From: Arbacia lixula
Lineage: Eukaryota > Echinodermata > Echinoidea > Arbacioida > Arbaciidae
Assembly (NCBI GenBank): GCA_963669155.1
Contig: OZ022596.1
Location: forward strand, 9,916,353 to 9,980,352
Direction of reading: 5' to 3'
DNA: 64,000 nt
The notes beneath the pieces were generated by a model. It saw only the letters and a list, made by a program, of their open reading frames with translations, did no database searches and was not told the origin of the DNA. A program made the translations under genes and the position numbers. Positions 36,455 to 64,000 of the stretch are shown here, piece by piece. Every line of letters starts with the position of its first letter. Positions within the stretch are counted from its first letter, which is position 1.

Positions 36455-36487
<33 letters not shown>

Positions 36488-36553
36488 GAAAGAAAATTCG
36501 GACAAAAACAAGAGGTGATCTGCCATGGCATGGCAGACCACCTAATAATAATA
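34836..36553. repeat. Array unit, B type, one hairpin module
   Basis: 1,718 bp. tRNA-derived segment at 35194-35270 (minus). One hairpin module at 36482-36544 with a lengthened AAT run. Confidence 0.9.
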
Positions 36554-39871: not shown

Positions 39872-41558
39872 ACGAGACATACTTGTGGACAAGTATCAGG
39901 TGGTCTGCATTGGCAAATTCATGCACAGACATGGGCTGGAAAATGCACGGTGAACTATAGACCTTCATTCGTGACACCAACTATCCATAAGCAATGTGAG
40001 ACAGCGCTCAAGAAAGCTCATAGGGCACCTATTATACTAAAATTTCAGAGAATTTCCTAAATGGTAACATGTTTATGCTAACGTGATTAATAGTCATGTA
40101 AGAGAATGGGGTGAGAGAAAAAAGAATTGGAAAGAAAATCTCAAAGAGAATGACAAAGTGAGGCATAGAACAGAAGAAGATGGCAAAATAAACATTGCAA
40201 AAGGAATGCAAAAGTTGACCCGACCCACGCCAGGAATCGAACCGGGGGCCTCGAGATCTTAAAACGGCGCCTTACCTATTGAGCCACAAATCTTCCCATT
40301 CACTTAACACGTAATGCCCAGCAGGGGCTAGAATGATTAAGAAATCGATATTCAAGCTGAAATTTCACCATGATCCCGACATCTGATTAAAAAATGGAGA
40401 CAACGTTCCGGAAAGCTCGTAGACTCAGCTACAACATACTGAAATTTCAGAGTGAAAGCTTGACATATTAGTGAGATACATCTCCTAGAAGCTCGTCATG
40501 TCATTTCATAAATACCACTTCCATTGACATAACACGGAAGTGCGATTTTGACATTCATGCGTATAATGAAATTTACACCGTGAAGACGTCATCAAAATGA
40601 AAAATGAAGGCAACTCCTACTATGGAGCGAGGTCTCAGCTACAACATACTGAAATTTGGGAGAAAATTGACCATGAATTACTGAGATACACAAAAGCGGG
40701 TAAAAAAGTTCATGACGTCATACATGAAAAATCATTTTTTCGATTCATATGGCAATATGATGACATCAACATAAATTTAAAAGGTAAATCGAACATTAAA
40801 TCACATCTACATTTCCCACTCTTTCAGAATATTGAAAAAAAATTTGGGGTCACCGGCCATTCTGAAGAGCTATGGCCGATTGAAGGTAGTCATGTTTTTT
40901 GCAATATTTGCACACAAAAACGTATTGACGCACGCGCAGACTTTGAACTTTGACGCACCCGCACGACCTTGTTATTGCATGGAAATGGCTCAAAATGACA
41001 GGATATGTTGTATGTAGTGTCAGTAACATGAATCCAGTAAAAAAACAGAATTTTGACGTTTTGTTCGCGTTACGCACGAAAAAACGCGCGAACGCGCGCG
41101 CACGCGCGGAAATTTTTGAAATGCTAGAAATGGCCTGAAACATATGCAAAACAATTTTGAGTTGATTTGGAGCATTTTAAAATTTTGCGCGCGCGTTTTT
41201 GCACTAACGTACGCGTACGCGCGCGTTTTTTTTCAATGAAATTAATTAGCTACTCATTAATTATATGCATGTCAAATTTCATTACACAGAGATGACCAGT
41301 TCTAGAGCTACATGAGGTAATAGTTTTTCATTAAACTGCTCGTAGATGACGTCACGATGACGTCATGACCTTGAAAATGTTGCTGTAACATGTTCACATA
41401 TATGTCCATACATGATGAACATTTCATGAAATATGGCCTATGCATTGTTGAGATATCCATGTCACAAAAATTTGGAATAAAAATAAATAAATAAATAATA
41501 AAGAAAGAAAATTCTAACGAAATTAAGAGGTGATCTGTCGTTGGCGACAGACCACCTA
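39872..41558. repeat. Array unit, A type, one hairpin module
   Basis: 1,687 bp. tRNA-derived segment at 40220-40293 (minus). Nearly identical to 28150-29717. One hairpin module of the second type at 41498-41555. Confidence 0.9.
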
Positions 41559-43183
41559 ACGAGACATACTTGTGGACAAGTATCAGGTGGTCTGCATTGG
41601 CAAATTCATGCACAGACATGGGCTGGAAAATGCACGGTGAACTATAGACCTTCATTCGTGACACCAACTATCCATAAGCAATGTGAGACAGCGCTCAAGA
41701 AAGCTCATAGGGCACCTATTATACTAAAATTTCAGAGAATTTCCTAAATGGTAACATGTTTATGCTAACGTGATTAATAGTCATGTAAGAGAATGGGGTG
41801 AGAGAAAAAAGAATTGGAAAGAAAATCTCAAAGAGAATGACAAAGTGAGGCATAGAACAGAAGAAGATGGCAAAATAAACATTGCAAAAGGAATGCAAAA
41901 GTTGACCCTACCCACGCCAGGAATCGAACCGGGGGCCTCGAGATCTTAAAACGGCGCCTTACCTATTGAGCCACAAATCTTCCCATTCACTTAACACGTA
42001 ATGCCCAGCAGGGGCTAGAATGATTAAGAAATCGATATTCAAGCTGAAATTTCACCATGATCCCGACATCTGATTAAAAAATGGAGACAACGTTCCGGAA
42101 AGCTCGTAGACTCAGCTACAACATACTGAAATTTCAGAGTGAAAGCTTGACATATTAGTGAGATACATCTCCTAGAAGCTCGTCATGTCATTTCATAAAT
42201 ACCACTTCCATTGACATAACACGGAAGTGCGATTTTGACATTCATGCGTATAATGAAATTTACACCGTGAAGACGTCATCAAAATAAAAATGAAGGCAAC
42301 TTCTACTATGGAGCGAGGTCTCAGCTACAACATACTGAAATTTGGGAGAAAATTGACCATGAATTACTGAGATACACAAAAGCGGGTAAAAAAGTTCATG
42401 ACGTCATACATGAAAAATCATTTTTTCGATTCATATGGCAATATGATGACATCAACATAAATTTAAAAGGTAAATCGAACATTAAATCACATCTACATTT
42501 CCCACTCTTTCAGAATATTGAAAAAAAATTGGGGGTCACCGGCCATTCTGAAGAGCTATGGCCGATTGACGGTAGTCATGTTTTTTGCAATATTTGCACA
42601 CAAAAACGTATTGACGCACGCGCAGACTTTGAACTTTGACGCACCCGCAAGACCTTGTTATTGCATGGAAATGGCTCAAAATGACAGGATGTGTTGTATG
42701 TAGTGTCAGTAACATGAATCCAGTAAAAAAACAGAATTTTGACGTTTTGTTCGCGTTACGCACGAAAAAACGCGCGAACGCGCGCGCACGCGCGGAAATT
42801 TTTGAAATGCTAGAAATGGCCTGAAACATATGCAAAACAATTTTGAGTTGATTTAGAGCATTTTAAAATTTTGCGCGCGCGTTTTTGCACTAACGTACGC
42901 GTACGCGCGCGTTTTTTTTCAATGAAATTAATTGGCTACTCATTAATTATATGCATGTCAAATTTCATTACACAGAGATGACCAGTTCTAGAGCTACATG
43001 AGGTAATAGTTTTTCATTAAACTGCTCGTAGATGACGTCACGATGACGTCATGACCTTGAAAATGTTGCTGTAACATGTTCACATATATGTCCATACATG
43101 ATGAACATTTCATGAAACATGGTCCATGCATTGTTGAGATATCCATGTCACAAAAATTTGGAATAAAAATAAATAAATAATAA
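41559..43183. repeat. Array unit, A type
   Basis: 1,625 bp. tRNA-derived segment at 41906-41980 (minus). No hairpin module. Confidence 0.9.
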
Positions 43184-44500
43184 ACGAGACATACTTGTGG
43201 ACAAGTATAAGGTGGTCTGCATTGGCAAATTCATGCACAGACATGGGCTGGAAAATGCACGGTGAACTATAGACCTTCATTCGTGACACCATCTATCCAT
43301 AAGCAAAGTGAGACATCGCTCAAGTAAGCTCATAGGGCACCTATTATACTAACACTTCAGAGATTTTCCTAAATGGTTACATGTTTATGGGGCGAGAAAA
43401 AAAGAATTGGAAAGAAAATATCAAATAGAATGACAAAGTGAGGGATAGAACAGAAGATGGCAAAATAAACATTGCAAAAGGAATGCAAAAGTTGACCCTA
43501 CCCACGCCAGGAATCGAACCGGGTGCCTCATCTAGATCTTAAAACGGCACCTTACCCATTGAGCCACACATCTTCCCTTTCACTTAACACGTACGTAATG
43601 CCCATCAGGGCCTAGAATGATTTAGCAATCGATATTCAAGCTGAAATTTTGCCATGGTCCCGCAATCTTATTAAAAAATGGAGATAACGCCCCAAAAGCC
43701 AGTAGACTCAGCTACAACATACTTAAATTTCGTGCACAGACATGGGACGGTAATGCACAGTGACACCATGGACCTTCCATAATGACACCATCTATTCATT
43801 ATAAGCAGAGGCTGCACACACGACGTGCCTACATAGTCACTTGTGTATGTGCTAACAACAATTAATAGTCACTTAACATAAAGGGGCGAGAGGGAAAATG
43901 GGAAAGAAAATCTCAAAGAGAATGACAAAGTAAGAGATTGAACAGAATAAGGTCGCAAAAAATCTTATTGCAAAAGGAATGAATTGTGACACCATCTATT
44001 CATAAGAAATTAGATGCACAGCTAGGCATGGGCTGCGATGGTAAATGCACGGTGACGGACAGTGGCACCATGTAATTCCTAACAAATAAGTAACAACGGG
44101 CGCGCGAGAAAGCTCATAGCGCTCTTACAGACTTGCCTTAATTGTCAGATGCTAACAACATGTAATTAATAGTCATGTAAGGTAAAGGGTTGAGGGGGGG
44201 GGGGAGGGAAAGAAAATTTCAAGGAGAAAGTGAGGGATAGAATAGAAGAAGGTGGCAAAATAAACATTGCAAAAGGAGTAAAATGACACCATCGACCCTC
44301 CATATGGTGACCCCATCTATTCATAAACATAAGGCAATACTCAAAATCTCATATCAAACCTATATAGTATTTTTATATCAGAGAGTAACTGTCTGAAACT
44401 CTTAATGCATGGTCATGAGTACGTGCTATTAAAATGTTAATAGCCAATTAAGATAAAAGTGCGAGAGAAAAATATTGGTAAATTAAGAAATATGAAATGG
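43184..44500. repeat. Decayed array edge
   Basis: Starts as an A unit with a tRNA-derived segment at 43497-43573. From about 43.7 kb it breaks into short, rearranged pieces of the unit start (GACACCATCTATTCATAA and AAAGGGGCGAGAG recur three or more times). Typical of the diverged margin of a tandem array. Confidence 0.75.
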
Positions 44501-44849
44501 AAGAACGTTAGCTGTGTTTTGATTTAATTATTGGATATGCTCATAAGTGACATTATTTGACGGACTGATACAAAACAAGAATAATATTTGATAAAAATCT
44601 GCTTGTCAAAGTGCATTATTTATGACGTGTATATTTCAGCATCGTTTGAATTTTTTTCCCCCACAAATACGTGAAAATTTGTTTTTACCTCCTATGCAGG
44701 GTTGGCTTTTGATTTTTGTCATCGACTTGTTATCCATGTTATCCAGAGATCAATCAGTTCAATCATAGCCCGATAGCTAGGGTTCAATACATTTAACTCG
44801 CATTTAATTGCTATTTACATCGTATTGAATAAATAGTAAAAGTGATCAG
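44501..44849. other. AT-rich spacer right of the array, nothing recognised
   Basis: No gene or repeat recognised up to the target-site duplication of the next element at 44842-44849. Confidence 0.6.
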
Positions 44850-45086
44850 CACGGGCGGAAATCGCTCCCCGAAGGTGTGTGTGGGGGAGGGGGGGGGGGC
44901 ATGTTTTTCCTCAAGTAACCGCTTAGGGGCGGGGGTGGGGGATCAGGGTGATGGATTTTATTGTGGGTGTTTTTTTTTTTTACGATGAAAGCAGTTGTGG
45001 AGGACACTATATCTTGTCGGCGAAAGGAACGAAAATAGTTTTTTGGGGGGACACGTCCCCCGTCTTCCCCGGGATTTCCGCCCGTG
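44850..45086. mobile_element. Small TIR element with 8-bp target-site duplication (hAT-like)
   Basis: Inverted termini CACGGGCGGAAATC (left) and GATTTCCGCCCGTG (right), 237 bp. Flanked by a perfect direct repeat GTGATCAG at 44842-44849 and 45087-45094. An 8-bp duplication is typical of hAT transposons. The interior is G-rich and non-coding. Confidence 0.75.
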
Positions 45087-45569
45087 GTGATCAGGAACAT
45101 GTGGAAGTGAAATATATTTTTAAAGATGAGGCGTAGATCCTCTGAAACGCTTTATGGACATCGTATCTGGCCGGTCGAGCTTTGTAGGGTCGAATTCTCG
45201 GATGGTTGAGTTGTGTTGTTCCGTGCTGCGATGCGATTGATCATGCGTGGGCTATATACTATATACGTACATGTATTGTAAGCACAAAAACGTATGAACC
45301 ATCCATTGCCGTCTAGTCTGTTCATGCGCCGTCCGTGATTTGCCTTTAGTTCGTATCATTGTGCTATTTCATCAGGGTGTATGAACCTGTGCTGTATCCT
45401 ATCAACGTTGAGTGTAAGTAGTTACGAGGTGGTGAATGGAGTAATAGAATATGGAATTATTATTTGCGCATATTCTTTAAAAATACGACTTTGCATCCGC
45501 TTGTTTTGGCAAAGTGACAGGGTGCATGAATTCTACGCATTGCGCATAGTGCATACATGTACGTGCAAA

Positions 45570-45700
45570 GGCGGTCGGTAGTGTGATTGGGGGCCCATTC
45601 TCGCTGCACATAGGATTTGAGACGAAAACAAATATTAAAGCATTTTAATGAAGTCTTACATTAAGTCACACTTATTTTGATGCTTTTTAGTCTTAAGTTT
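45570..45700. repeat. 130-bp dispersed repeat, copy 1
   Basis: TGATTGGGGGCCCATTCTCG..GACGAAAACAAATA..TTAAGTCACACTTATTTTGA matches 47475-47590 in the same orientation and order with indels. Confidence 0.55.
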
Positions 45701-48510: not shown

Positions 48511-51500
48511 ATGAGTAGTAAAGGTATCAAGATATTTTCACTAAATTGCCGTGGACTTGGAGAACGATGTAAAAGGGAGGATCTGTTTGATTTTTTGAAA
48601 AAGAAAGAAGCAAATATTTATTGTCTACAAGACACTCATTTTGTTTTAGAATTAGAAGAAGACATATTTAAAGAGTGGGGAGGAAGGGGTGTCTTTTCAT
48701 ATAAATCATCTAATGCAAGATGAGTTGCAATATTATTTGATAAAAACACACAACTTGTTATAAAAAGAGTTAAGTGTGACATTGATGGTAATTTTGTGGC
48801 CCTTAGTATCCAATGTGGTTTTCTAGACTTTTCATTGATAGCACTTTATGGGCCAAACAATGATTATCCAGAATTTTATGGAGGTATAGCAAATGTCTTA
48901 TTGGATTGGGATGATCCTCACAAAATTATTTGTGGTGATTGGAATTTGGTACAGAGTTTGGAGTTAGATACTTTTAATTACCTTCGACTTAGTAAAGACT
49001 ATAGATTTGTAACTAATGACCAGTTGTTTTTTGATACACTGTTAATGGAGTTGAGAGCAATAACAGTTTTGTATGCAATTCGTCAGAAAAAGAAGGAAGA
49101 AAGTGTAGAAAAGGACCTGGAGTCTGAGATTGTTAGAAAGATTGTTGTAACCGAATACAGATACTAGAGAAAATTAGAAAAAATTAGTGTATTGAGAGAA
49201 GAATTACAACAATTTAGACGTCAGAAGCGGGAAATGGCAGCAAATAGACTACGGCTTCAAGTAATGCAATTTGGGGAAAAACCATCTAAATACTTTTTGA
49301 ATTTGGAAAAACATAGGATAGCTGAAAAAACATTTGTAAAACTAATTGATGACAATGGTACATGGAAGTTGGATCATATTATGAACGTTTGTATAAATAT
49401 GCAAACTGTGATACAGATGTTATTTTCTCTCATATAAGGGAAGATCATTTCCAAAGTCTCTCAGAAGAAGAGTGTGTTTCTTTAGAAGGAGAAATAACTT
49501 ACAGGGAAATTGAATATGCAATAAAGAACATGAAAAATGATAAAGCCCCAGGACAAGATGGATTTACAGTGGAATTTTTCAAATATTTTCTTGAAGAGTT
49601 AGGTGTGTATATGATGCGTAGCATGAATTTCGCTTACAACTCTGGAAAACTATCTTTCTCACAAAAACTTGGTTTGATAACACTACTTCCTAACCTAAAG
49701 GTGACAAAGTGAGACACTTCATTAAAAACTGGAGACCAATTTCTTTGTTGAATGTTGTTTATAAGATATTATCGAGCTGTATTGCTAATAGACTTAAAAA
49801 AGTATTACCTAGTATTATTCATGGTAATCAAACAGGATTTTTGTCTGGACGATTTATTGGTGAAAATATTAGAATTTTAGATGACATAATTGCTTATACT
49901 GAAAAGGAAAAGGTTCCTGGTATGATTTTGTTAATCGATTTTGAAAAGGCTTTCGATAGTCTTTCTCATCAATTTTTATATAAAACGCTTTCCTTTTTTA
50001 AATTTGGAAGCTCTTTCATAAAGTGGATAAATCTAATGTATAGTGATGCGTACTCTAGTGTTATGGTTAATGGGCAAATAACATCTAGATTTCGCATAGA
50101 AAGGGGCTGTAGGCAAGGTGACCCACTTTCGCCCTACTTGTTCTTGTTATGCGCGGAAATTCTTGGGGTATTAATTCGAAATTCACAATTGGTAAAAGGA
50201 ATTTCTATCGGGTCAAAAGAATTTAAGGTCCTTCAGTATGCCAATGATACAGTATTGTTTTTAGATGGCACAGCTGCCAGTTTCCGCAATGTACTTCATA
50301 TTTTGGATTCTTTTGGTAATTGTAGCGGGCTTAAGATGAATATGCAGAAAACAAATGCAATTTGGATTGGTGCCTTAAAAGGTAGCGAAGATATAAGATT
50401 GGATGGAAGACAAGTGAATTTTGTGCATAATGATTATTTTCGTTACCTTGGTACTGACTTTCATGTTGATATCGATAAAATGCCTGATTATAATTATGAC
50501 AGAATTTTTGACAAAGTAAAACGTCAAATGATTTCTTGGATCAAACGGAACATTACAGTTCTTGGAAGAGTTACAGTTGCTAAATCATTACTGCTACCAC
50601 AGTTTAATCATTTGTTTATGTCAATTCCTGCTCCTTCAATTAAGTTAATGAAAGCAATAAAAGTAAAGTTCTTTAATTTCATATGGAAGAATAAGCCTGA
50701 TAGAATTAGTAGGAAACAAGTTGTGGGCACTTATGAAGAAGGGGGTCTTAAGATGCCAGATGTCGAGTTTTTTAGTATGTCATTAAAGCTCACATGGATT
50801 CGAAGATTGGTTTTAGATACATGTAATGATGTTTTCCATTTAATGCAGTCGTTTTTAACAAAACAATTTGTTGTAGGGTTTGGTGATGAATATTTTTCAA
50901 CATTATCCCATGAAGTTGCCAATCCATTTTGGAAAGATGTATTTTATGCTATGTCTTTGCTGTGTCAAGTTGAGGTAGATGACTGGCTAACATATCCACT
51001 GTGGAGGAATAGTTCTATCCAAATCGGGAAAAAATCTGTATTTTTAAAATCTTGGTACGAAAAAGGCATCAGATGTGTCAATGACCTTATTGATAGTAAG
51101 GGGACTTTGTTAACTTAATGAAGAATGTGAGCAAAAGTTTTGCTTGAAACTTATTTATTTGTCTTACTAATCTATTAGTCAAGCTATAAAGTGTCGGTAT
51201 AGAATTTATATTGGAAAATGTGAAAAAAGTATAGAAGGTCCATTGATGCCGTCACATATCAAAACACTTGTATGTGACTCACAAGGATGTCGATACATCT
51301 ACAAAACTCTTTTTGGAAAGACAAACTGTATACCCTCAATATGTTCAAAATGGGAACGACATTTAGATTACAGCCCTGCTAGTTCATTTATGCAGAAATG
51401 TCATACATGTATTATGATATTTCGATTTACTCCAGATATTGCTTTAAGATATTTTCAGTATAAGATAGTAAACAGGATTTTGTTCTTGAATAAGCAACTG

Positions 51501-52269: not shown

Positions 52270-52590
52270 TTTTATTTTCTCGGAACGCGTTATGATCCTT
52301 TCAAGTTTAGATTTTGTAACATTCAGTGCCAGGTGCTCTTGCATATGTTGGGTAAAATTTCCTTTCAAAAGTGTGCATTTCTGCAAAAGATATGATCCTT
52401 TCACATGTTGTCAAAAACAGGAAAAGAATAATTTATGATGTTATTTTGTACACAACACCTCGCACGTGACATTACAAAATTGAAATTTCTTATTCTTTGA
52501 TGATTTTTCGTCAAACCTTCACTCATATGTTTCTTTTTATGTTTCCGCTCTTATTGAAACCAACCTATTATCAGGGTGAACTAGTCGTTT
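52270..52590. mobile_element. MITE, same family as 24495-24840
   Basis: Shares GATTTTGTAACATTCAGTGC, AGGTGCTC, TTTGTACACAACACCTCGCA and TTCGTCAAACCTTCACTCA in the same order as the copy at 24.5 kb. Ends near TATCAGGGTGAACTAGTCG. Confidence 0.55.
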
Positions 52591-52799
52591 AGAGATAAAA
52601 TGTTTATTGTACTGAATTAGTTGAAATGTTACGAATATAACCTAAGTCATGTAAAGTAAATCCTTTTTTTCTGTATTCTTTTATTACAGGTACTCTGTGA
52701 AGCTCTGCGGTGAAGACAGAGAGTGTATGTCTCCTTCCTCTATAGTTGTGTTGCCTGCATCTAGCAGGGTCTGTGACTAACCCTTCTGAGTTTTTGTAT

Positions 52800-53200
52800 T
52801 GTGTCTTTTTATATGTTTGTAACTTTCTATCACTGTTTTTCCAAGTGTCTGGCAATCGACAGTCTCCTCTGGCCACGCAATTGCCAGTTGGAGTGTCCTC
52901 CTGGTTGCCTTAAGGACACCAGATCCTGTTTTGTGTCGAAATTTACATGTTGAAATCACTAAACCCAGATTCTCAAGAATCTGGAGAATTTTACTAATCC
53001 TTCTTAATTGTATTGTCTTGTAACTTTCTATCACAATTTTTCCAAGTGTCTGGCAATCGACAGTCTCCTCTGGCCACGCAATTGCCAGTTGGAGTGTCCT
53101 CCTGGTTGCCTTAAGGACACCAGATCCTGTTTTGTGTCGAAATTCACATGTCGAAATCACTAACCCAGATTCAGAGAATCTGAGAAATCTCAAATCTGAA
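52800..53200. repeat. 201-bp tandem duplication
   Basis: CCAAGTGTCTGGCAATCGAC occurs at 52841 and 53042. The two copies are nearly identical over about 180 bp. Since 201 is divisible by three, an open minus-strand frame contains the same 67 residues twice (GSGVLKATRRTLQLAIAWPE). I do not recognise the sequence. Confidence 0.8.
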
Positions 53201-53640
53201 CGCAATCTTGAACGCAATCTTAAACGCAATCTCAAATCTAAACGCAATCTGAACGTGAAATTTCAAATCTGAACGAAATCTTAATGTGAATCGTCTGAAC
53301 GAAATCTGAATGTTAAATGAAAGTGTGAAAACTGAAAAGTGAAAGAAAGATTACAAGTGAATTCTAGAAGTGAGTGAACGTGAAATGAAAGTGTGAAATA
53401 TATGTTGTGAAATCTGAAAAGTGAAAGAAAGATTGCAGGTGAATTCTAGAAGTGAGTGAACGTGAAATGAAAGTGTGAAATATATGTTGTGAAATCTCAA
53501 AAGTGAAAGAAAGATTACAAGTGAATTCTATAAGTGAGTGAACGTGAAATATAAGTGTGAAATACATGTGAAATCTCAAAAAGTGAAAGAAAGATTACAA
53601 GTGAATTCTTAGAAGTGAGTGAATGAGCTGTAAAAGAAAT
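53195..53640. repeat. Short GAACGCAATCT repeats and 82-bp minisatellite
   Basis: First 10-12-bp steps (AACGCAATCTT and variants, 53195-53290). Then four starts of an 82-bp unit beginning AAGTGAAAGAAAGATT at 53337, 53419, 53501 and 53581. Confidence 0.8.
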
Positions 53641-54524
53641 CAGACAATAATACACGTACAAGTTTGAATGGAAATGTAAAAGCTTGAGTACAGTGATTGG
53701 TTTAGATATAAAGAGTTATAGTGTTGATGGTTGAGATTGAATTGTTTGTTTGATTACATATATGCCTGTTGTCATGTTGTAAAAGCACTATACAGTAGTT
53801 GGTTGATAATAAGAAGATAGTTCAGGGATCAAAGAAGTAACACATAACAAGAAGAACATTATTTTGAGGCAGAAACAGAAAAATAGGCAATTGTAAGAGT
53901 TGACTAAAACGAAGGTAATAAATTGCATGAAAGAGGTAGCCTCTTAATTGAAGAGTTCAGAGCTAAGTATACTCTACACGGTTGAAACGATCAGTTATTT
54001 AATTGATTTTAATTTAAAAGCGCCATCTTGTGGCTGACATATACTCAAACGCTGTGGACACTGAATGCAAAGTTAGTGTTAGAACGCCATCTTGAGGCCG
54101 AAACATTATACTCTGCACATATACAGTACATGTACTGAACACAATCGTACGTGCATACGATCGATTGTTAAAACAAGATACATAAACTTGATAATATATA
54201 ATACAGGTTTATATCACAAGTAACGTGTGAACTGGCAGGGCGAAATTAAGAGAAAAATTAAGGCCATTAATTTCCAAAATAGAATTGAGGATCTTGATGT
54301 TAAAAACAACCTTGTGTTAAAAAAAAAATTGCAGACCATATATTAGTCGTTGTGCTAACTATTTACAAAATTCTTGGAAGGGTTATTACTTGGTGAAATA
54401 TATAAAACATTTTACATAAGTGTCTTATTCACAATTCCAAATTATACGTATTGCAAGCAAAGCTTGAGACATTCAGGATTTGGAGCAATTTCACTTCAAG
54501 GAACGTTATACTATCACAGGCAAA
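53640..54524. other. Non-coding stretch before the Helentron ORF
   Basis: AT-rich, possibly the 5' leader of the Helentron. GCGCCATCTTGTGGC (54019) and ACGCCATCTTGAGGC (54083) are a near repeat. The in-frame stop nearest the ORF is TGA at 54465-54467. Element ends were not identified. Confidence 0.4.
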
Positions 54525-57500
54525 ATGGTTGCTGGTACAAAGACTGAAGGATTAGAGGAAGTGGCAGAATGCTTCATTTGTGGAAAAGGTGTGCAAAAAA
54601 ATGAGAATGAGGTCAAGTGTGAAACCTGTTTGAGATGTTACCATGTGTCATGTTTGAACATTTCATGTGAAGACAAACTGATGGACATCAGACTTGTATG
54701 GATTTGCATTTGTGGAACCAACAATATATCTGTCCGTATGTTTGACCAACTAGGTATCCCAATCGATGTAAACGCCTATGAACCTATCAGTCCAGAACGT
54801 GATGTCGAGGAGCAAGACTGCAATCCTGTTGAAGGCGTAAAAAAGATGACAAGAGATCGATGTGGACGCTTCACAAAGAAGAAAAGGTACGTGAATAAGG
54901 GACAGAAACGATCATGCTCACCTGAACTAAAAAGTGTTAAAAAGAGGAGAAATGAAATGTATGTGCCCAGTGTGGATGAACCAGTGAATGAAGGAAAAGC
55001 ATTTGACATGGAAAAGGAATCTTGTTCAAGATGGGAATCAATGAAATCTAGAAAAACAAAATTCTTGGAAAAGAAGGGTGGATTGACATCAGTCAATATG
55101 AAGTGTAGGCTGAATGATGATGAGTGTCGTGAATTCAAAAAAGAACAGGGAGTGACCTACATTGGGAAATCAATGAGGCATCTGTATTGCAAATCACCCA
55201 GGATTAGTAAAGCCCCAACCACTGTCCCCAAATCAAAAGTGAAAGGAAAGAATGAAAAGTCCAGAACATGTACATCAGAAGTGGAAATCAAAGATGAAGT
55301 CAGTGTAAATGACCTGAAGTTCATGTGTAGAGGAAGAGTTTGTCACGATGAATCAAAACTATGTCAACGTGCCACTGATGATTGCTCCAAGGCAAGTGAA
55401 ATGGCTGTATTGTTCAGTAAACAGAAATCTCCTAGTGAATGGTCTCCTTCAGATATTGATGCTCTCACAACATGTTCAATGCAATTTCCCTCAAACAGTT
55501 GTGATGAATCTGAAATCGCCAAAGGTGAGAGCATATCTCTTTCTCAAGTGATTACAGGCCCACTCTCTGAGCACACACATCCAGAATCGCTACTCAACAG
55601 ACTACAGGAATCAATTGAAAATTGTGATGGCTGTCTAATTAGTTTCAGTAATCAGACTTTTCTAGTGATCCGACATGAAACAGGCTACTACATCTTCGAT
55701 CCACATTCCAGAAGTAGAAGAGGATGTTACAGTAGACATGGCAAAAGCATTCTCATGCACACTGAAACTTGGCTTGGAGTGTACTCTTATTGCATACAGT
55801 TGTGCAATTCATTAAAGCTCCCACGTGATGTGATGTACAAGCTGACACAGGTAGTAGTTACATGTATGTACAGATCAAAGACTGACGCATTGAAAATGCC
55901 AACCTCTCCGAGAACAGTGCAATATGACACGATATGTGACAATGCTGTTGTACCTCAAGGTGAACAATTTATCTCTACAACTGATTCAATTGATCACTGC
56001 AGTGAAACATGTGCATCATCTGTGTCGACAGTGTCTTCAACCACTACAGCTAGTAGAGTCCTATTGAAACAAACCAGTGATGAAATACCTGTTGATCTGA
56101 AACCATACAGCATGAAGAGTAGCTGTTCTCAAAATGAATCTATTGAAGTGTGCATGGACAAGAAGTCACCTTTAACAAACCATGAGGTATGTGACCAAGA
56201 GCATGCAATGGTAACCAAAGTGAAGGATGCAGCTGAACAGAAAAGCAAAGCAGAAAAAGTGAAACGTGAATTTTCAACAGCTGAACATGTGAAGTGTCCT
56301 GAATCATTTGCTACAGATCCAGTATTGACAGTGCAAACTGAAGAAGCAAATGGAATTGAAATTGGCACAACAAAACCTATTCACCAAGTGACAGCAAATC
56401 CACGTTCTCATAATGTGCAATTTGCAAGTCAGGTTGGGCATAAGTACCAGTCCACTAGTGATCTCCCAAACAAGTGTGCAAAAGTCAATACAGAAATAAG
56501 ACATGTTACCCAAGGAACATTTCATCAAGGTGACCAAAAATTTGGCAATTCAAGTGGAAAGCAGTGTGTTGCAAATTCGTTATCTGCACTGATGTATAGC
56601 AAAGTAAAAAATGCCAATGAGTGGAAGTGTACAGATCTAGATAGGGTTTTGAATAATGGTGATGAATTATATTGTAACATACGAAAATTTAATTCAGTCA
56701 TTGAGGAATACTTGTTGATATCTGATCTGTTTGAATTTGTGGATGCATATGATCAATTGTTTGAGATTAAAACATGCGAGTCTGTGGGTGGATTGTTAGA
56801 TGGAGATGAATCATTATTGGCCCAGTCTCTTACAATGCCATTGAAGGGAATTCTTGAACGTGAACTCAGCAGTGACTCTGATGGATGTTTTGTGACTTTT
56901 GCTGGATGTACATTTATGGTCATATCAGGTCAAGATGGTTTTTTTATATTTGATTCACATTCAAGAAGCAGACGAGGCTTACTGATTGAGCAAGGATACA
57001 GTATTCTCCTTCATACTCCAAGTTGGCAAGGTGTATACAAGCACTGCATGAGATTAGCTAAAACAATGGGATGCCCCATGTGCACTGAATGTGAAGTAAC
57101 TAGCGTTAATGTCAAAACAACTTCTGGAAAAAGTGAAACCTTGAAAGGATATCCCCAGTTACACGATATACCCTCTGGTCAACTTCCATCAAGAAGTGGA
57201 CAATGCGCAAATGTGTCTGAAACATCTGAATGTTCCATTCAGTATGACATTTTTGATGAATTACCAAGCTTTAATCAGAGTAGCACAGAAGAAAGTATTC
57301 AAACCCAAGATTTATCTTGTACTGATAATGCAAATAATCCTAACATGCATTTCAATGGTCAACAATTGAAATTGAAAAGTGTGACAATTGAGCTAACCAA
57401 GTTAACAGAGACACAACTTAACAGTCTTTGCTCTAAGAAAGGAAATATCATTAAAGCAGTGAGTGACAATGATAAGAAACAAAAGACTGAAAATTGTACT

Positions 57501-60500
57501 TTGCAATGTGAAAGTGACTTGAATGACTCAGAGCTAGGGGAGAAATTGCAGAATAGAAAGAGAACCATGAGTGGAAAACGAAAACTGAAAAACATAGAAA
57601 GCGATGTCGAAGTTAGTGTTGACCCCTGTAAAAAAATAAGAAAAACAGACTCTAGACAAATTGAAGTGAAAGAAAATAATGACTTGAAAAATGATGAAAA
57701 TGAATGTGAAACAGATCCTGAAGAACTGTTGATACTCAGTGAAGTTCGTTCAACTATGTGGTTTAAACCTCTTGATGAAATAAGAAGGAAACAATGTTGT
57801 AGAAAAGTTGAAATACCTGATGTTGATTGTCATAATTCTGATTATAGACTTGAAGTGTGTACACCTTTAACCGAACCTAGAAACATTAAGCATATTACTG
57901 GCGATGGAAACTGCTTTTATCGTGCAATTTCATTTGCTATCACAGGAAACGAAGGAAACCATACCGTATTAAGGAAAGCCATTGTTGTTCATCTGTTGAA
58001 AAACAAAGAAATATTTGTTAGCTTGTTGAGAACAGGTTATACAAGTGTTGCTGATTATATCTCAAAGAGTAACATACTGGATAATGGTACTTGGGCTACA
58101 GAAATGGAAATTATGGTTCTAGCAAATTTGATTGAAACAGATATATATGTATATAATGATCAGCTTTGTAGATGGAGCATATTTTGTGGCCGAAATATCC
58201 AAGTTGGAAGTGTGACAACTGAGAAAGGAATCTACCTGAAACATACACATTGCATTCATTATGATGTTGTTTTGTCAGTCCAATCATCTGAATCTTTTTC
58301 TTTGGATAGTGAGGTGGATGTTAAAGGAAATAATATATCAGAAATGCCTGATGTGCAAGTAAAAACAATTGACAGGAAAACAAAGAAAAGGCGTACACCA
58401 CAGTCTTACAATCAAACTAAGGTTCGCAAAAGAGAGCAAATGAGAGAAAAACGTGCTTTGATGAAAAAAGAAAGTAATGAAAAAAGAGACAACGATATGT
58501 CATACAAAATCAAGAAACAAAGGCAGAACATAAAGTACAGACATGATATAAAATTTCAGAAAACACACCTCAATACTATGAAAAGTAAATACTCTGATTT
58601 GCAGTATAGGTCTAAACTTCTTCATTCAAACAAACAGAAATATATTACTAATGAAAAATACAAAGAAAGTCATAAAAGAACAATGCGAAATAAAATGAGA
58701 GATTTGTATACCAACAACGAACATTTTAAACAGAAGCATAGTTGTATTATGAGAAGGAGCACAAGAAATAAATATCAGAAAAATGACCATTTCAAACAAA
58801 CACAAAAAGCTACTATGAGAGTAAGCATGATAAATAAATATAAGGAAAATGACCATTTCAAACAAACACAAAAAGCTACTATGAGAGTAAGCATGAGAAA
58901 TAAATATCAGAAAAATGACCATTTCAAACAAACACAAAAAGCTACAATGAGAGCAAGCATGAGAAGTAAATATAAAGAAAATGAATATTTTCGTAAAAAG
59001 CAAAAGGTATCTATGAAAAACTTGTCCCAAACAAGGTACAACAACATTAATATAAAGCAAAAGAAATTGTTAAGATTAAAAATGAAGTACAAAACAATTG
59101 AGAACTTTAGGCAAAATGTAATGAAACAAAATAGGGAAAGGGCTGTAGCTAAAACACAGGAAATGTCAAAGTTTGATAATGTACTTCAGGAATTTAGGAA
59201 GATTATTTCCCATGGTCCAGAATTTGTCTGCTGTGTTTGCTTTAAACTTCTCTTTCAGAATCAAGTAAAAAAATGTACAAAGACAAATTATAAGCTTCAA
59301 AGGTGTATAAATGAGGAATATTTACATGTTTGCAATTCACAATGCGAATCACCATGTCAAATAGGCCAGTCATCTAGATCCTCACTATGGATTTGTTTCA
59401 CCTGTCACAATAAGCTGAAATCTGGGAAAGTACCTGCAGAAGCAAACGTGAACAACTTACACCTTCACAGAGTTCCAGGAGAACTTGCAAATTTGAACAG
59501 TTTAGAACAGCACTTGATTGCATTGAATATCCCTTTCATGAAGTTAATGGCTTTGCCTAGAGGAGGTCAAAATGGAGTTCATGGTCCAGTCGTATGCGTG
59601 CCTTCAAATACTTATGAAACAGTAGAGATGTTGCCAAGACCACAGACAGAAGATCAATTGATCCGTGTTAAACTGAAAAGAAAATTGTCGTTCAAAAGCT
59701 ACTACAAGTACAAATTTGTAGATAAGACCAAATTGATGAATGCTTTGCACTATTTAAAAGGAAGTAATAAGTGGTATTTAGATGTAAACATAGATACTAA
59801 GTGGAAAAACACATTAGATCAGAATGAAAATGATAATGAAACAGAAGTCTTTGAAACTTTTGGTGAGACACATATCTTAAATGATATCAGAGAACTTGAG
59901 GAAGAGCGAGATAAAGAGAAAGACAAAATTGATGATTCCCGAAATGCTGAAATGAGGGGTAACAATGACCCTGAAGATGATTTAGAAGAGAGATTATGTG
60001 GAATACAGTTGGATACATGTTTGCAGCCTGCAGATATTGGACAAGAAATTCTAGATCAGTACTTTGATGACATCATATGTTGCGCTCCTTGCGAAGGAAA
60101 AAGCCCTGTTTCAGTATTGCAAGATGAAAGCAATGAGGCAAAATGTTTTCCAGTGTTATTTCCACAGGGTCAACCAACATTCCATGATAAAAGAAACGAG
60201 AAGATAACTTTGGGACGCTACTTACATAATCGACTGATGCATGTCGATAACAGATTTGCCCGAAGTACAGATTACATCTTTTATGCACAATATATTTATG
60301 AAATTCAACAGGTTTTGTCACAAGTTTCTATTGCATTAAGGCAAAGTCGAGACAAAAAAGATGACACTTCTACAATAACTGCTTCAGATTTGAAAGATGC
60401 AGATACAGTTCAAAAGATACTAAAATCAGACAAAGGATATAAATTTCTAAAGCAAATTCGTGGAACACCTCCTTATTGGCAAAAGACACAAAAAGATGTG

Positions 60501-63500
60501 ATGGCAATGGTACGACAGCTTGGAAAGCCAACATGGTTTGCATCATTTTCAGCTGCAGATATGAGATGGCCAGAAATAATGAATACATTGTTAACACAGC
60601 AGGGAGACTCCAGGAAATCGACTGAATTGGATTGGACAGAAAAGTGTAATCTTTTAAGATCAAATCCAGTTACAGTTGCGAGAATGTTTGATAAAAGATT
60701 TCACACTTTCATGAATAAAGTTATTCTGTCTCCAGCTGCACCAATTGGTAAAATAATTGATATGGTCTACCGTGTGGAATACCAGGCAAGAGGTTCCCCT
60801 CACATACATTCATTATTATGGGTTGAAAATGCTCCAGAGTTGGGAATCGATAAAGATAAGGATGTCATACGATTCATAGATACGTACATTTCCTGCCAGA
60901 TTCCTGACAAAAAGGAAGATCCAGAACTATATGAAATAGTCAGCACTGTACAACAACACAGTAAAAAACATTCCAAATCTTGCAAAAAGAAAGGAACAGC
61001 ATGTAGATTCCATTTTCCAAAACCACCATCTGAAAGAACATTCATCATGAAACCTGAAATAAATAAAGCTAATGACAGTGGGAAAAATCAATGTGATGTT
61101 GAGTGCCAAGTCAAAGCTTCTGTAAAGGCTAAATCTGATGCAAAAGAATTGTTAAGTTCTGTTAAAGATGCTTTATCTGATGGAAGTGAATACAACAGTA
61201 CAAGGCATCTCTTTGAGAAACTTGGTATTACACAAACTCATTTTGAGAAAGCGCATAATGAAATTGCTTCACAGGACAATATAGTTATCAAGAGAGATCC
61301 GCATGATGTATGGGTTAATCAATACAATCCAAACTTACTTCGATGCTGGAATGCAAATATGGATCTGCAATACGTAACCAATCCGTATGCATGTGTAGCT
61401 TACATCGTTTCCTATATGTCAAAAGCTGAACGGGAAATGGGAATGCTTTTGAATCACACACTAACTGAAATGGAACAAGGAAATAAAGATGCCAAGGAAA
61501 GTATGAAAAAAATTGGACAGGCATATATGCAGAATCGTGAAGTATCTGCTCAAGAAAGTGTTTATCGTGTATGTAGTCTCAGACTAAAAGAATGTTCAAG
61601 AAAAGTGGAATTCATTCCTGTTGGACCTGATCCTGTTAGAATGAGTCTGCCGTTAAGCGTAATACAAAACAAACCAGATGGAGATGATGATCAGAATATT
61701 TGGATGCCTAGTAAACTTGACAGGTACAAAGCTCGACCTAGAATTACAGAATTCAAAAATATGTGTCTAGCAACATTTTGTTCTCAGTATAGAATTTTAA
61801 CTGCATCACAAGAGCCAAGTACAAAGAGTAAAAATGTCTTTAAATTGGATAACAATTTAGGATATATACAGAAACGTACACGTACTAAAGATGCAATTAT
61901 AAGATATCCCAGATTCTCTGCTTCCACTTCACCTGACAAATACTACTTAAGCATATTACAACTGTTTTTACCACATTTTTATGATGAGCAATTGAAGCCT
62001 CCAACTTTTAAGACACACCAAGAGTTCTTTGAAAGGGGTTCTGTAAAATTATGTGGATGTGAAATACAAAATGTGAGGTCAATTGTGTGTACCAATCAAA
62101 GTGTTTTTGAAATAAACGCTGCCGCAATTGATGAAGCACAAGAGCACTTAAACAAATTTGGTCCACAAGAAGATGCTTGGGGTCTTCTGTGTCCAGAAAC
62201 TGAAGTAGAGCGACTTGAACATACGAGAGAGAGTGTAGACTTAGAAGATTGTGATGGAGACCTTGATATCCCTGATTTAAAACGTGAGCCAAAAAAAGAT
62301 GATTATAGCATAGAATTTCGATCAACAAAAATATCTAAACAAGATGGACATTCTTTGATGAGGTCTTTGAATGAAAAGCAACAGAGTGTGTTTTATAAAG
62401 TACGTCAATGGTGTTTAGATACAGTGAATGGAAAAGTGGTGGAACCTTTTCATATATTCATAACTGGTGGTGCTGGCACTGGAAAGAGTCATTTGGTTAA
62501 ATCCATTTACTATGAAGTAAGTCGTATACTAGCCAGAATGTTACACCATCCTGATGATGTCTCAGTACTGAAAGTGGCTCCTACTGGAGTAGCTGCATAC
62601 AATATCAATGGCCATACGATACACAGTGTTCTTTCAATTCCAATTAACGCACAGATGCCCTATCAGCCACTTAGTGAAGAGAAAATAAGTGTCCTTAGAA
62701 ATAAACTAAGTCAATTGCAAATTTTAATCATCGATGAAATATCAATGGTCGATCAAAAGTTGATGTACTATATCCATAGTCGACTCCGTCAAATAAAACA
62801 ATCCCGTAATCAAACTGCTTTTGCTGGTGTTTCGGTTATAGCTGTGGGAGATATGTATCAATTACCTCCTGTATTTGGAAATTCTTTATATAATGACACA
62901 CTCGAAGGTGGATTGTGGAATGATAATTTCAAGAAAGTAGAACTGGAGGACATTATGAGACAGAAAGACGATATTGAATTTGCCCATCTTCTGAACAGAT
63001 TACGTGTTAAAGAACATGCCGATATTTTGTGTGATGGAGACATAGCCATGCTTACATCTCGTGAAACTGGTGAAGAATGTGCAAATGTTCTCCACATATA
63101 TTCAAGTAACAAAGAAGTAGATGCTTGGAACAAGAAATTATTGCATAAAAAATGTGATGATGTGATATGTATAAAAGCAGAGGACACTGAGAAAGACGCT
63201 AGAAATGGAAATAAAATCCGTGAAAAACCTTGTACAAGAAAAAAAAACCAATTGCCTAATTATTTATGGATTGCTGTTAATGCTAGAGTCATGTTGATAA
63301 AGAACATTGATGTAAACAAAGGCCTTACAAATGGATGTTTTGGTAATGTAGTAGAAATAATATGGGATCAGACAAAGTTTAAACCAGTTTGCATTCGAGT
63401 TGATTTTGACAAAGCTGATGTTGGTATTCATTCAATTAAATTGTCTCAAGAGTCAATTGGTAAGAAAATTATAAGGCAACAATTTCCTCTTAAACTTGCT

Positions 63501-64000
63501 TATGCATGTACCATTCATAAAGTACAAGGTTTGACATTAGATAAAGCTGTTGTGTCATTAAAAACTATTTTTCAATCTGGACAAGCATATGTTGGGCTCA
63601 GTCGGGTTACTTCCTTATCTGGACTTGTCATAGAAAATTTTGATCAAAAACGCATACACTGTAATCCACAAATCAAAGAAAGCATGGATAAAATGACTCC
63701 TTTTATCGAGGAAAGCACTTCGGAAGATGTCAATGTTCACAATTTCTCGTTGATCATGCAAAATATACAGGGTTTGAAACAGCACTTTATAGATTTCAAA
63801 TCCCAGTGTCAATTTTTAAATACAGATTTTATATGTTTTACAGAAACATGGATAAACAATGAGAATATTTTGGATGTTCTTATAGACAACTTTAGATTTT
63901 ATCATCAGCCACGACATCTTTCATACTGCAATTCTGGTGATGGAAAGCAATTCAAAGAACAATCACATGGAGGTGTTGCAATGTATATCAAGCATGCACA
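54525..64000 (+). CDS. Helentron (Helitron2-type) Rep-helicase-endonuclease with PHD, C76-like and OTU protease domains; open past the window end
   Basis: One uninterrupted frame of at least 3,158 codons from the ATG at 54525 (A at -3, G at +4; in-frame TGA at 54465) to the window edge. Domains in order, by residue: PHD-like zinc finger (16-62: C16, C19, C32, C35, H40, C43, C60, C62); half of a C76-like protease domain (about 343-445, FDPHSR at 392); a full C76-like domain (about 665-850, GKQC with C681, FDSHSR with H812); OTU protease (about 1120-1250, DGNC with C1130, H1245 in HYDVV); Lys/Arg-rich 22-residue repeats (about 1400-1490); Cys-rich DUF6570-like region (about 1565-1690); Helitron Rep (about 1876-2330, HIH at 2093-2095, Y2293 and Y2297); PIF1-like SF1B helicase (GGAGTGKS with K2654, LIIDEISMVD, GDMYQLPP, IHKVQG, GLSRV); start of an exonuclease-endonuclease-phosphatase domain from about 3069 (NIQGL, FTETW). 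Rep and helicase drive rolling-circle transposition. The protease roles are unknown. The copy looks intact and recent. Confidence 0.92.
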   Translation, partial: MVAGTKTEGLEEVAECFICGKGVQKNENEVKCETCLRCYHVSCLNISCEDKLMDIRLVWICICGTNNISVRMFDQLGIPIDVNAYEPISPERDVEEQDCNPVEGVKKMTRDRCGRFTKKKRYVNKGQKRSCSPELKSVKKRRNEMYVPSVDEPVNEGKAFDMEKESCSRWESMKSRKTKFLEKKGGLTSVNMKCRLNDDECREFKKEQGVTYIGKSMRHLYCKSPRISKAPTTVPKSKVKGKNEKSRTCTSEVEIKDEVSVNDLKFMCRGRVCHDESKLCQRATDDCSKASEMAVLFSKQKSPSEWSPSDIDALTTCSMQFPSNSCDESEIAKGESISLSQVITGPLSEHTHPESLLNRLQESIENCDGCLISFSNQTFLVIRHETGYYIFDPHSRSRRGCYSRHGKSILMHTETWLGVYSYCIQLCNSLKLPRDVMYKLTQVVVTCMYRSKTDALKMPTSPRTVQYDTICDNAVVPQGEQFISTTDSIDHCSETCASSVSTVSSTTTASRVLLKQTSDEIPVDLKPYSMKSSCSQNESIEVCMDKKSPLTNHEVCDQEHAMVTKVKDAAEQKSKAEKVKREFSTAEHVKCPESFATDPVLTVQTEEANGIEIGTTKPIHQVTANPRSHNVQFASQVGHKYQSTSDLPNKCAKVNTEIRHVTQGTFHQGDQKFGNSSGKQCVANSLSALMYSKVKNANEWKCTDLDRVLNNGDELYCNIRKFNSVIEEYLLISDLFEFVDAYDQLFEIKTCESVGGLLDGDESLLAQSLTMPLKGILERELSSDSDGCFVTFAGCTFMVISGQDGFFIFDSHSRSRRGLLIEQGYSILLHTPSWQGVYKHCMRLAKTMGCPMCTECEVTSVNVKTTSGKSETLKGYPQLHDIPSGQLPSRSGQCANVSETSECSIQYDIFDELPSFNQSSTEESIQTQDLSCTDNANNPNMHFNGQQLKLKSVTIELTKLTETQLNSLCSKKGNIIKAVSDNDKKQKTENCTLQCESDLNDSELGEKLQNRKRTMSGKRKLKNIESDVEVSVDPCKKIRKTDSRQIEVKENNDLKNDENECETDPEELLILSEVRSTMWFKPLDEIRRKQCCRKVEIPDVDCHNSDYRLEVCTPLTEPRNIKHITGDGNCFYRAISFAITGNEGNHTVLRKAIVVHLLKNKEIFVSLLRTGYTSVADYISKSNILDNGTWATEMEIMVLANLIETDIYVYNDQLCRWSIFCGRNIQVGSVTTEKGIYLKHTHCIHYDVVLSVQSSESFSLDSEVDVKGNNISEMPDVQVKTIDRKTKKRRTPQSYNQTKVRKREQMREKRALMKKESNEKRDNDMSYKIKKQRQNIKYRHDIKFQKTHLNTMKSKYSDLQYRSKLLHSNKQKYITNEKYKESHKRTMRNKMRDLYTNNEHFKQKHSCIMRRSTRNKYQKNDHFKQTQKATMRVSMINKYKENDHFKQTQKATMRVSMRNKYQKNDHFKQTQKATMRASMRSKYKENEYFRKKQKVSMKNLSQTRYNNINIKQKKLLRLKMKYKTIENFRQNVMKQNRERAVAKTQEMSKFDNVLQEFRKIISHGPEFVCCVCFKLLFQNQVKKCTKTNYKLQRCINEEYLHVCNSQCESPCQIGQSSRSSLWICFTCHNKLKSGKVPAEANVNNLHLHRVPGELANLNSLEQHLIALNIPFMKLMALPRGGQNGVHGPVVCVPSNTYETVEMLPRPQTEDQLIRVKLKRKLSFKSYYKYKFVDKTKLMNALHYLKGSNKWYLDVNIDTKWKNTLDQNENDNETEVFETFGETHILNDIRELEEERDKEKDKIDDSRNAEMRGNNDPEDDLEERLCGIQLDTCLQPADIGQEILDQYFDDIICCAPCEGKSPVSVLQDESNEAKCFPVLFPQGQPTFHDKRNEKITLGRYLHNRLMHVDNRFARSTDYIFYAQYIYEIQQVLSQVSIALRQSRDKKDDTSTITASDLKDADTVQKILKSDKGYKFLKQIRGTPPYWQKTQKDVMAMVRQLGKPTWFASFSAADMRWPEIMNTLLTQQGDSRKSTELDWTEKCNLLRSNPVTVARMFDKRFHTFMNKVILSPAAPIGKIIDMVYRVEYQARGSPHIHSLLWVENAPELGIDKDKDVIRFIDTYISCQIPDKKEDPELYEIVSTVQQHSKKHSKSCKKKGTACRFHFPKPPSERTFIMKPEINKANDSGKNQCDVECQVKASVKAKSDAKELLSSVKDALSDGSEYNSTRHLFEKLGITQTHFEKAHNEIASQDNIVIKRDPHDVWVNQYNPNLLRCWNANMDLQYVTNPYACVAYIVSYMSKAEREMGMLLNHTLTEMEQGNKDAKESMKKIGQAYMQNREVSAQESVYRVCSLRLKECSRKVEFIPVGPDPVRMSLPLSVIQNKPDGDDDQNIWMPSKLDRYKARPRITEFKNMCLATFCSQYRILTASQEPSTKSKNVFKLDNNLGYIQKRTRTKDAIIRYPRFSASTSPDKYYLSILQLFLPHFYDEQLKPPTFKTHQEFFERGSVKLCGCEIQNVRSIVCTNQSVFEINAAAIDEAQEHLNKFGPQEDAWGLLCPETEVERLEHTRESVDLEDCDGDLDIPDLKREPKKDDYSIEFRSTKISKQDGHSLMRSLNEKQQSVFYKVRQWCLDTVNGKVVEPFHIFITGGAGTGKSHLVKSIYYEVSRILARMLHHPDDVSVLKVAPTGVAAYNINGHTIHSVLSIPINAQMPYQPLSEEKISVLRNKLSQLQILIIDEISMVDQKLMYYIHSRLRQIKQSRNQTAFAGVSVIAVGDMYQLPPVFGNSLYNDTLEGGLWNDNFKKVELEDIMRQKDDIEFAHLLNRLRVKEHADILCDGDIAMLTSRETGEECANVLHIYSSNKEVDAWNKKLLHKKCDDVICIKAEDTEKDARNGNKIREKPCTRKKNQLPNYLWIAVNARVMLIKNIDVNKGLTNGCFGNVVEIIWDQTKFKPVCIRVDFDKADVGIHSIKLSQESIGKKIIRQQFPLKLAYACTIHKVQGLTLDKAVVSLKTIFQSGQAYVGLSRVTSLSGLVIENFDQKRIHCNPQIKESMDKMTPFIEESTSEDVNVHNFSLIMQNIQGLKQHFIDFKSQCQFLNTDFICFTETWINNENILDVLIDNFRFYHQPRHLSYCNSGDGKQFKEQSHGGVAMYIKHA
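54570..54712 (+). other. PHD-like zinc finger at the N-terminus of the Helentron protein
   Basis: Spacing C-x2-C-x12-C-x2-C-x4-H-x2-C-x16-C-x-C, with W58 two residues before the last Cys pair, is PHD-like (C4HC3) with a shortened final pair (CIC). PHD fingers usually read histone tails. In a transposon protein this could guide target choice, which is inference. Confidence 0.6.
55551..55860 (+). other. Half C76-like protease domain (no catalytic Cys part)
   Basis: Residues about 343-445 repeat the C-terminal half of the domain at 665-850: GCLISFSNQTFLVI against GCFVTFAGCTFMVI, and YIFDPHSRSRRG against FIFDSHSRSRRG. The N-terminal half with GKQC is absent, so a partial internal duplication is likely and this copy should lack peptidase activity. 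Confidence 0.65.
56510..57080 (+). other. C76-like (herpes-tegument-type) cysteine protease domain
   Basis: GTFHQGDQKFGNSSGKQCVA, NSLSALMYSKVKNANEW and DLDRVLNNGDELY, then FIFDSHSRSRRG and SILLHTPSWQGVYKH. The Q-C, H and D positions match a papain-like fold of the kind seen in herpesvirus large-tegument deubiquitinases (MEROPS C76). The assignment rests on motif memory and needs a profile search. Confidence 0.5.
57885..58275 (+). other. OTU cysteine protease domain
   Basis: ITGDGNCFYRAISFAITGNE holds the Asp and Cys of the OTU triad. WATEMEIMVLANLIETDIYV and HYDVVLSV supply the conserved middle and His motif. OTU enzymes cleave ubiquitin chains. OTU domains are known in several animal Helitron proteins. 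Confidence 0.88.
58720..58985 (+). repeat. 22-residue basic repeats in the Helentron protein
   Basis: NDHFKQTQKATMRVSM, followed by [IR]NKY[QK][EK], is repeated three times with a 66-bp period, with weaker copies on both sides. Net charge is strongly positive, so nucleic-acid binding is plausible. Confidence 0.8.

Follow-up and report, generated by a model that had tools for sequence, protein, structure and literature searches.

Helentrons that carry a viral tegument-like deubiquitinase domain (VTD) are already known. Erven et al. (2022; PMC9741609) reported the domain from vertebrate, insect, cnidarian and mollusc Helentrons, of which 121 also had an OTU domain, and provided a crystal structure and deubiquitinase assays. 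In that paper, K48- and K63-linked ubiquitin is cleaved by three VTDs from zebrafish Helentrons, and K11-linked ubiquitin by two of these; transposon OTUs had at that time not been assayed for activity, and the authors suggest that transposition proteins are protected from the proteasome.

The window analysed here, a stretch of 64,000 nucleotides from the sea urchin Arbacia lixula (contig OZ022596.1), contains a Helentron frame in which a PHD-like finger and two VTD-related regions precede an OTU domain and the transposition enzymes. The preliminary description of this DNA regarded the tegument-like protease and the PHD finger as undescribed in Helentrons. The first half of this claim does not hold, the protease having been in print since 2022, and novelty of the combination of VTD and OTU is likewise rejected, as it was published in the same paper (PMC9741609); the second half stands in so far as the word PHD has no occurrence in the consulted main texts of PMC9741609, PMC6431247 and PMC4067079. 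No description of a PHD finger in Helentrons, shared with crinoid elements, was found in the open-licence PMC literature, and as far as searched the novelty beyond the known Helentron VTD and OTU consists of this finger, a maintained degenerate VTD and a mosaic structure.

Coding content and surroundings of the element

The frame runs uninterrupted on the + strand from a TTG at 54480 or an ATG at 54525, the latter with an A in position -3 and a G in position +4, past 63998 in the window and into the adjoining genomic DNA (Table 1). It comprises 3303 codons from the TTG and 3288 aa from the ATG; Pfam hits were numbered from the TTG, and 15 is to be subtracted for the ATG numbering. Reading the ORF to its stop, together with the Pfam matches, confirmed the giant single frame and the domain order given previously, while the end of the feature, formerly placed at 64000, is actually at 64391. 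From the N- to the C-terminus, the order is PHD-like finger, degenerate VTD (C76), intact VTD, OTU, basic repeats, Cys-rich/DUF6570 region, HUH Rep, PIF1-like helicase and AP-type endonuclease. The scan of the whole ORF gave E-values of 1.3e-28 for PIF1 and 1.4e-8 for OTU in addition to those in Table 1, and the helicase matched PIF1 structures (E 1.3e-41) and Helraiser 7lcc (E 4.3e-29). The HUH Rep core has H2093-x-H2095, and Y2293 and Y2297 are candidate catalytic tyrosines. An HUH Rep joined to a PIF1-like helicase, with an AP-type endonuclease at the C-terminus, characterizes the class, and by its predicted coding content the element is placed among the Helentrons. The idea that the stretch derives from a herpesvirus or another virus is not supported, the protein being Helentron throughout in Pfam. 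The basic region varies in length, A3 and B1 being 44 codons shorter than A0 and the other copies shorter by 0, 12 or 70; its 66-bp units encode a basic repeat of 22 aa.

Table 1. Features of the Helentron and its 5' flank (nucleotide positions of the window; residues counted from the ATG)
Feature	Position	Strand	Evidence or remark
5' region	43389..45645	+	~90% to a B-subfamily unit
Leader 5' of ORF	52405..54524	+	common, wholly or partly, to copies on other contigs; 82-bp tandem repeats 53324-53623
Whole ORF	54525..64000 in window, stop 64389-64391 outside	+	3288 aa from ATG; in-frame TTG 54480
PHD-like finger, aa 12-66	54558..54722	+	PF00628 E 6.5e-5
Degenerate VTD, aa 265-455	55317..55889	+	alignment to intact VTD, VTD profile, AlphaFold model
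Intact VTD, aa 655-850	56487..57074	+	PF04843
OTU domain, aa 1106-1260	57840..58304	+	PF02338 E 1.4e-10 on isolated piece
Basic region, 28% K+R	58305..59219	+	66-bp tandem units 58764-58984
DUF6570, Cys-rich stretch before	59424..59801	+	PF20209 E 7.9e-19
HUH Rep core (Helitron_like_N)	60225..60818	+	PF14214 E 5.6e-35; H2093-x-H2095
Candidate catalytic tyrosines Y2293, Y2297	61401-61415	+	motif location
PIF1-like helicase	62367..63677	+	Pfam and structure matches; Walker A aa 2648-2655
C-terminal AP-type endonuclease (Exo_endo_phos)	63804..64000, Pfam match on to 64319 outside window	+	PF03372 E 5.7e-14

Beyond the ORF, the copies share the leader, the 5' region, a 3' region with reverse-transcriptase-like fragments, and arrays of ~1.65-kb units. 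These arrays, with a palindromic stretch, flank the Helentron at 26303-43731 and from 72536 to about 78650 (5 of 2418 candidates scored); on contig C15, about 9 kb of the same units precede a dispersed B copy. The arrays may be part of the element or its landing site. The element ends were sought by comparison of copies and were not located, because the arrays stand on both sides, and neither a target site nor an empty site was found; Helentron ends are described as having subterminal inverted repeats, a 3' palindrome and a T-rich target (PMC4067079). A LINE-type reverse transcriptase frame occupies 49709-51118 (RVT_1, E 3.7e-36), in a stretch that adjoins seven of the eight A loci, the one on C3 being the exception. 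Downstream of the ORF, at about 64785-68900, there are internally repeated fragments that appear partly reverse-transcriptase-like by eye and are partly common to A and B copies. A 33-bp minisatellite at 15756-18357, with about 79 copies, can be read through in several frames of both strands, and Rfam gave no matches at gathering scores.

Copies, selection and mosaic structure

The genome (607 Mb, 590 contigs) was searched with a Rep probe and an N-terminal probe, and the resulting locus counts are lower bounds. The N-terminal region is present at 33 of the at least 34 Rep loci, the 34th lying 218 bases from a contig end. Of these 33 loci, 25 are of type B and eight of type A, the type seen in the window, with one A locus interrupted. 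Eight of the 11 copies read have the full frame (A0, A1, A2, A5, A6, B1, B3 and B4), A3 has a long frame without the PHD part, and A4 and B5 are broken. Over 9924 frame bases, A0 and A1 differ at 3 positions, A0 and A2 at 7, and A1 and A2 at 4, while B1 and B3 differ at 4 of 9837. The recent activity previously deduced from the intact frame is thus supported in the form of recent multiplication, and the copies fit an origin by transposition or, for the tandem B units on C42, by other amplification. The copies and the PHD matches in relatives also rule out the objection, raised in advance, that the N-terminal domains could be a chance fusion. The intact frame and the purifying selection described below might also mark a domesticated host gene instead of a mobile element, but many of the Rep loci are near-identical, they are spread over contigs that include several of 18-30 Mb, and Rep, helicase and endonuclease are all still recognizable, which makes such domestication barely credible.

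Two B-type units stand in tandem at C42:20924-47281 with a spacing of 24,996 bp, an arrangement that would fit rolling-circle transposition but is no proof of it. At least seven of the 25 B copies lie on contigs shorter than 0.25 Mb (C31, C36, C42, C133 and C134), and on contig C21, which is 20 Mb long, one A copy and two B copies fall within the initial 131 kb.

Omega was calculated by the Nei-Gojobori method for 11 pairs, four of them with bootstraps; the dN/dS and AU tests used six of the 11 copies, with the near-duplicates A1, A2 and B3 and the broken A4 and B5 left out and A3 included though it lacks the PHD. Between subfamilies A and B, omega was 0.25-0.31 for the intact VTD, 0.11-0.26 for the Rep and 0.69-1.06 for linker 2, with values for A0/B1 of 0.27 (95% range 0.16-0.45) in the VTD and 0.77 (0.50-1.18) in linker 2, and the OTU had 0.32-0.37 in pairs with A5. 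The degenerate VTD had 0.43-0.56 in six A/B pairs (A0/B1 0.43, 95% range 0.26-0.67) and 95% ranges below 1 in the four bootstrapped pairs, and its C-terminal half was at 0.14-0.40 (A0/B1 0.26) and its N-terminal half at 0.49-0.84; within B (B1/B4) the value was 0.85, from eight changes. We read this as purifying selection between the subfamilies, under which the degenerate VTD would not be decaying, with a constraint weaker than that on the intact VTD. Linker 1, a stretch to which no domain is assigned, shows the same omega (0.42-0.45 in the bootstrapped A/B pairs), so that this measure alone is no proof of a kept fold. For the PHD, omega was 0.42 for A0/B1 (95% range 0.15-1.27) and 0.28 for A5/B1 (0.10-0.74), with a range of 0.15-1.56 for A6/B4, and was not significantly below 1 in two of the four bootstrapped pairs (A0/B1 and A6/B4).

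These values also bear on whether the N-terminal half could be a captured passenger with no role in transposition. Helitrons do capture gene pieces (PMC6431247), and 41 of the 131 relatives compared have no VTD hit, though some of these are perhaps truncated models. However, the half is kept at nearly every locus in this genome, the intact VTD is constrained between the subfamilies, and the same domain order recurs in proteins of Antedon and in P0034 and P0038, so we consider a mere passenger very unlikely.

The two halves of the element appear to differ in their history. For A0/B1, dS is 0.29-0.68 up to aa ~840 and afterwards mostly <0.15, with 0.22-0.23 in places. For A0/A5, values of 0.01-0.18 up to aa ~1080 give way to 0.17-0.47 over most of the remainder, except for dips at aa 1601-1720 and 2081-2280. 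AU tests on the six copies rejected two trees when given the data of aa 110-840, namely those of aa 890-1080 (p 4e-69) and aa 2300-3280 (p 2e-37), and again two when given the data of aa 2300-3280, namely those of aa 110-840 (p 1.7e-6) and aa 890-1080 (p 3.6e-7); the poorly resolved tree of aa 1110-1560 was rejected with neither data set (p 0.2 and 0.19, respectively). Moreover, the broken copy B5, on contig C4, joins an N-terminus of type B, 81% identical to A0, to a Rep that is 99% like the one of A0. The dS profiles, the computed tree conflict and the B5 mosaic together indicate that the element halves have very probably recombined between lineages, and the subfamily mosaic shows which parts of the element get exchanged. 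We tentatively hypothesize, while inclining somewhat against it, that PHD, degenerate VTD and intact VTD form a host-interface cassette of chromatin reader, ubiquitin-binding pseudo-protease and deubiquitinase, which would be swapped among Helentron lineages onto a shared Rep-helicase core by recombination. If this were true, the host-facing part would change faster than the transposition machinery.

Protease-like domains, PHD finger and proposed mechanism

Both kinds of cysteine protease named in the preliminary description were recovered in Pfam, as Herpes_teg_N (E 1.7e-12, 47.8 bits vs a cutoff of 25) and as OTU; the second C76-like region is thus above the cutoff, and the idea that neither such region would match a cysteine protease does not apply. 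OTU residues D1127, C1130 and H1245, which we take to be the catalytic Asp, Cys and His, are present in all six aligned copies within the profile match. In the intact VTD, Q668, C681, D810 and H812 are invariant among 12 aligned sequences. It has the catalytic Cys with D-x-H (C681, D810-x-H812) and, in its predicted model (pLDDT 91.5), a papain-like VTD fold that matches 8add (TM 0.86, E 6.7e-14) and murine cytomegalovirus M48 (E 2.8e-12). The entry 8add has the title 'Viral tegument-like DUBs' and the molecule name ATP-dependent DNA helicase, from which we conclude that it probably represents the zebrafish Helentron VTD studied by Erven et al., who give D-x-H as a mark of the VTD family (PMC9741609).

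The degenerate VTD had been called half a C76 domain. Its relation to the VTD stands: on its own it reaches a Pfam E-value of only 0.045, but it is 29% identical to the intact VTD (BLASTP E 3e-26, one single comparison), a VTD profile built with inclusion of this protein's intact VTD finds its C-terminal half (E 3.3e-25), and the top match of its AlphaFold model (pLDDT 72, pTM 0.73, low confidence in places) is 8add (E 8.4e-8). The term half, on the other hand, overlooked that the Cys and the D-x-H are in fact still there. In the VTD tree of 42 rows (selected relatives and five copies), the degenerate copies group with the intact ones in a 21-row group (UFB 100, aLRT 99) that also includes Antedon, P0034/P0038 and one Strongylocentrotus protein; their exact position is unsure because their stem is as long as 1.86 changes per column. 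The full catalytic set and the whole fold were not found in this domain, which by alignment and model is derived from a VTD and is not counted as an active one. That it nevertheless remains an active protease with an altered oxyanion residue would agree with the retention of C287, aligned with the nucleophile, and of D392-x-H394 in all six copies aligned, with A and B separated by a dS of 0.37-0.40 in this region. Yet a Gln that stands 13 residues N-terminal of the Cys and is invariant in 12 VTDs has become His, the Gln adjacent to the Cys has been lost along with an Asn close by, a central stretch is absent, and the model is of low confidence in places; we therefore consider retained activity quite unlikely.

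The PHD finger proposed for this ORF scores just under the Pfam cutoff and is supported by matches in relatives. It has the C4HC3 zinc ligand pattern (C16, C19, C32, C35, H40, C43, C61 and C63) with a W before the last pair, the eight ligands being kept in five of six aligned copies (A3 is without the stretch), and scores 23.3 bits vs a gathering cutoff of 24, i.e., 0.7 bits under it. Its last ligand pair is C-x-C, as it is in P0034/P0038, and not the usual C-x2-C, which the Antedon proteins have. BLAST matches to the finger were obtained in nine of the 131 relatives, namely P0034 (51%, E 5e-23), P0038 (41%) and seven proteins of Antedon mediterranea (32-37%). Residues 1-460 as a homologue query gave no match at E <= 0.01 among 2167 candidates, probably through lack of sensitivity, because the Rep search brought up the relatives with the PHD. 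Additional PHD-like stretches were seen in P0034 (437-481 and 641-682) and P0038 (510-544).

Taken together, the locus is probably a young, potentially autonomous Helentron with a rolling-circle transposase shielded by deubiquitinases and perhaps tethered to histones by its PHD. Judged from the family, the HUH Rep and PIF1 helicase of the single polypeptide would nick and unwind the element DNA, and the C-terminal endonuclease could cut the target DNA. The VTD, and probably the OTU too, may strip ubiquitin from the transposase or the surrounding chromatin and so protect from degradation, a role proposed by analogy with the active zebrafish Helentron VTDs; on the same analogy it is plausible that the element counters host ubiquitin control. 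The PHD would probably bind histone tails and tether the complex to chromatin, while the degenerate VTD could be kept by selection as a partner with little or no catalytic activity, perhaps a platform that binds ubiquitin, and the PHD-VTD half appears to have been exchanged between element lineages, as the tree conflict suggests.

The preliminary description had also envisaged that the element processes its own polyprotein, the proteases cutting it into Rep, helicase and endonuclease parts. A single product of 3288 aa with two cysteine proteases would suit this, Thomas et al. (2014) proposed self-cleavage as one option for Helentron OTUs (PMC4067079), and two of the six Gly-Gly sites loosely resemble the ubiquitin tail and are kept in all six aligned copies (LPRGG, aa 1677-1681, and LEGG, aa 2793-2796). 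However, LPRGG lies within DUF6570 (LPKGG in a relative) and LEGG within the PIF1 match, both looking like parts of folded domains and not like linkers, and the sole Gly-Gly in an N-terminal linker (aa 185-186) is kept in five of six copies. None of the six sites is convincing, little speaks for self-processing, and we regard it as unlikely. Near-identical, frame-intact copies with two deubiquitinase classes and a PHD offer one element in which to ask why Helentrons and herpesviruses keep deubiquitinases, and a transposon PHD next to deubiquitinases suggests how a rolling-circle element could read or edit its target chromatin.

Comparison with related elements

The 131 related proteins came from a search with the Rep region (448 matches, of which the best 120 were used) and one with the VTD region, which gave 19 proteins (12 from Saccostrea, one from Brachyhypopomus and six others), none of them with a PHD match. 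Among the matches listed, the closest Rep relatives, at 74-78%, are the sea urchin proteins P0020 (78%), P0021 (76%), P0022 and P0024, which have no VTD in their Pfam lists and no PHD match, though short models among the relatives may be truncated. In the Rep tree of 40 rows chosen from the 131, the distribution of PHD with VTD needs at least four changes; the label of lacking a VTD is unsafe there, because P0036 (1811 aa) has a Rep nearly identical to that of P0034 (3278 aa) and is possibly a truncated model.

The same combination of PHD, VTD and Rep as here occurs in all nine proteins of the set formed by P0034, P0038 and seven proteins of the crinoid (feather star) Antedon mediterranea (P0030, P0032, P0035, P0037, P0051, P0053 and P0058). 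In precomputed Pfam lists, the helicase is present in eight of the nine (none listed for P0032) and the endonuclease in six, and the OTU is found in all seven Antedon proteins and just under the cutoff in P0034/P0038. Our own scan of P0034, P0038, P0037, P0030, P0035 and P0058 found VTD, DUF6570, Rep and helicase in all six, a weak endonuclease in P0035, and an OTU above the cutoff in the four Antedon proteins among them. Unlike the element described here, none of the set was found to have a degenerate VTD when this was looked for; in P0058 both VTD and OTU occur twice. The Saccostrea Helentron proteins P0001-P0010 share VTD, OTU and Rep, but the VTD motif occurs once in them and the PHD gave no match. 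In the stickleback Pungitius pungitius, P0095 has a degenerate VTD followed by an intact one and an OTU in its Pfam list, as here, whereas D-C-G replaces D-x-H in its degenerate copy and it has no PHD match.

Among the described elements, the zebrafish Helentron DrT2 also combines a VTD, active there, with an OTU (PMC9741609), and Helentrons in general have the same Rep/helicase, AP endonuclease and OTU (PMC4067079), with PHD mentioned in neither of the texts consulted; some Helentrons carry a SET domain, another chromatin-related domain (PMC4067079). A PHD in a transposon protein is also found in RAG2L of the RAG-like transposons, which differs in that it belongs to another transposase class, has its PHD after a kelch domain and spaces the ligands differently. 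In sea urchin, the RAG2-like PHD binds histone H3 methylated at K4, with a preference for the dimethylated form (PMC7204232).
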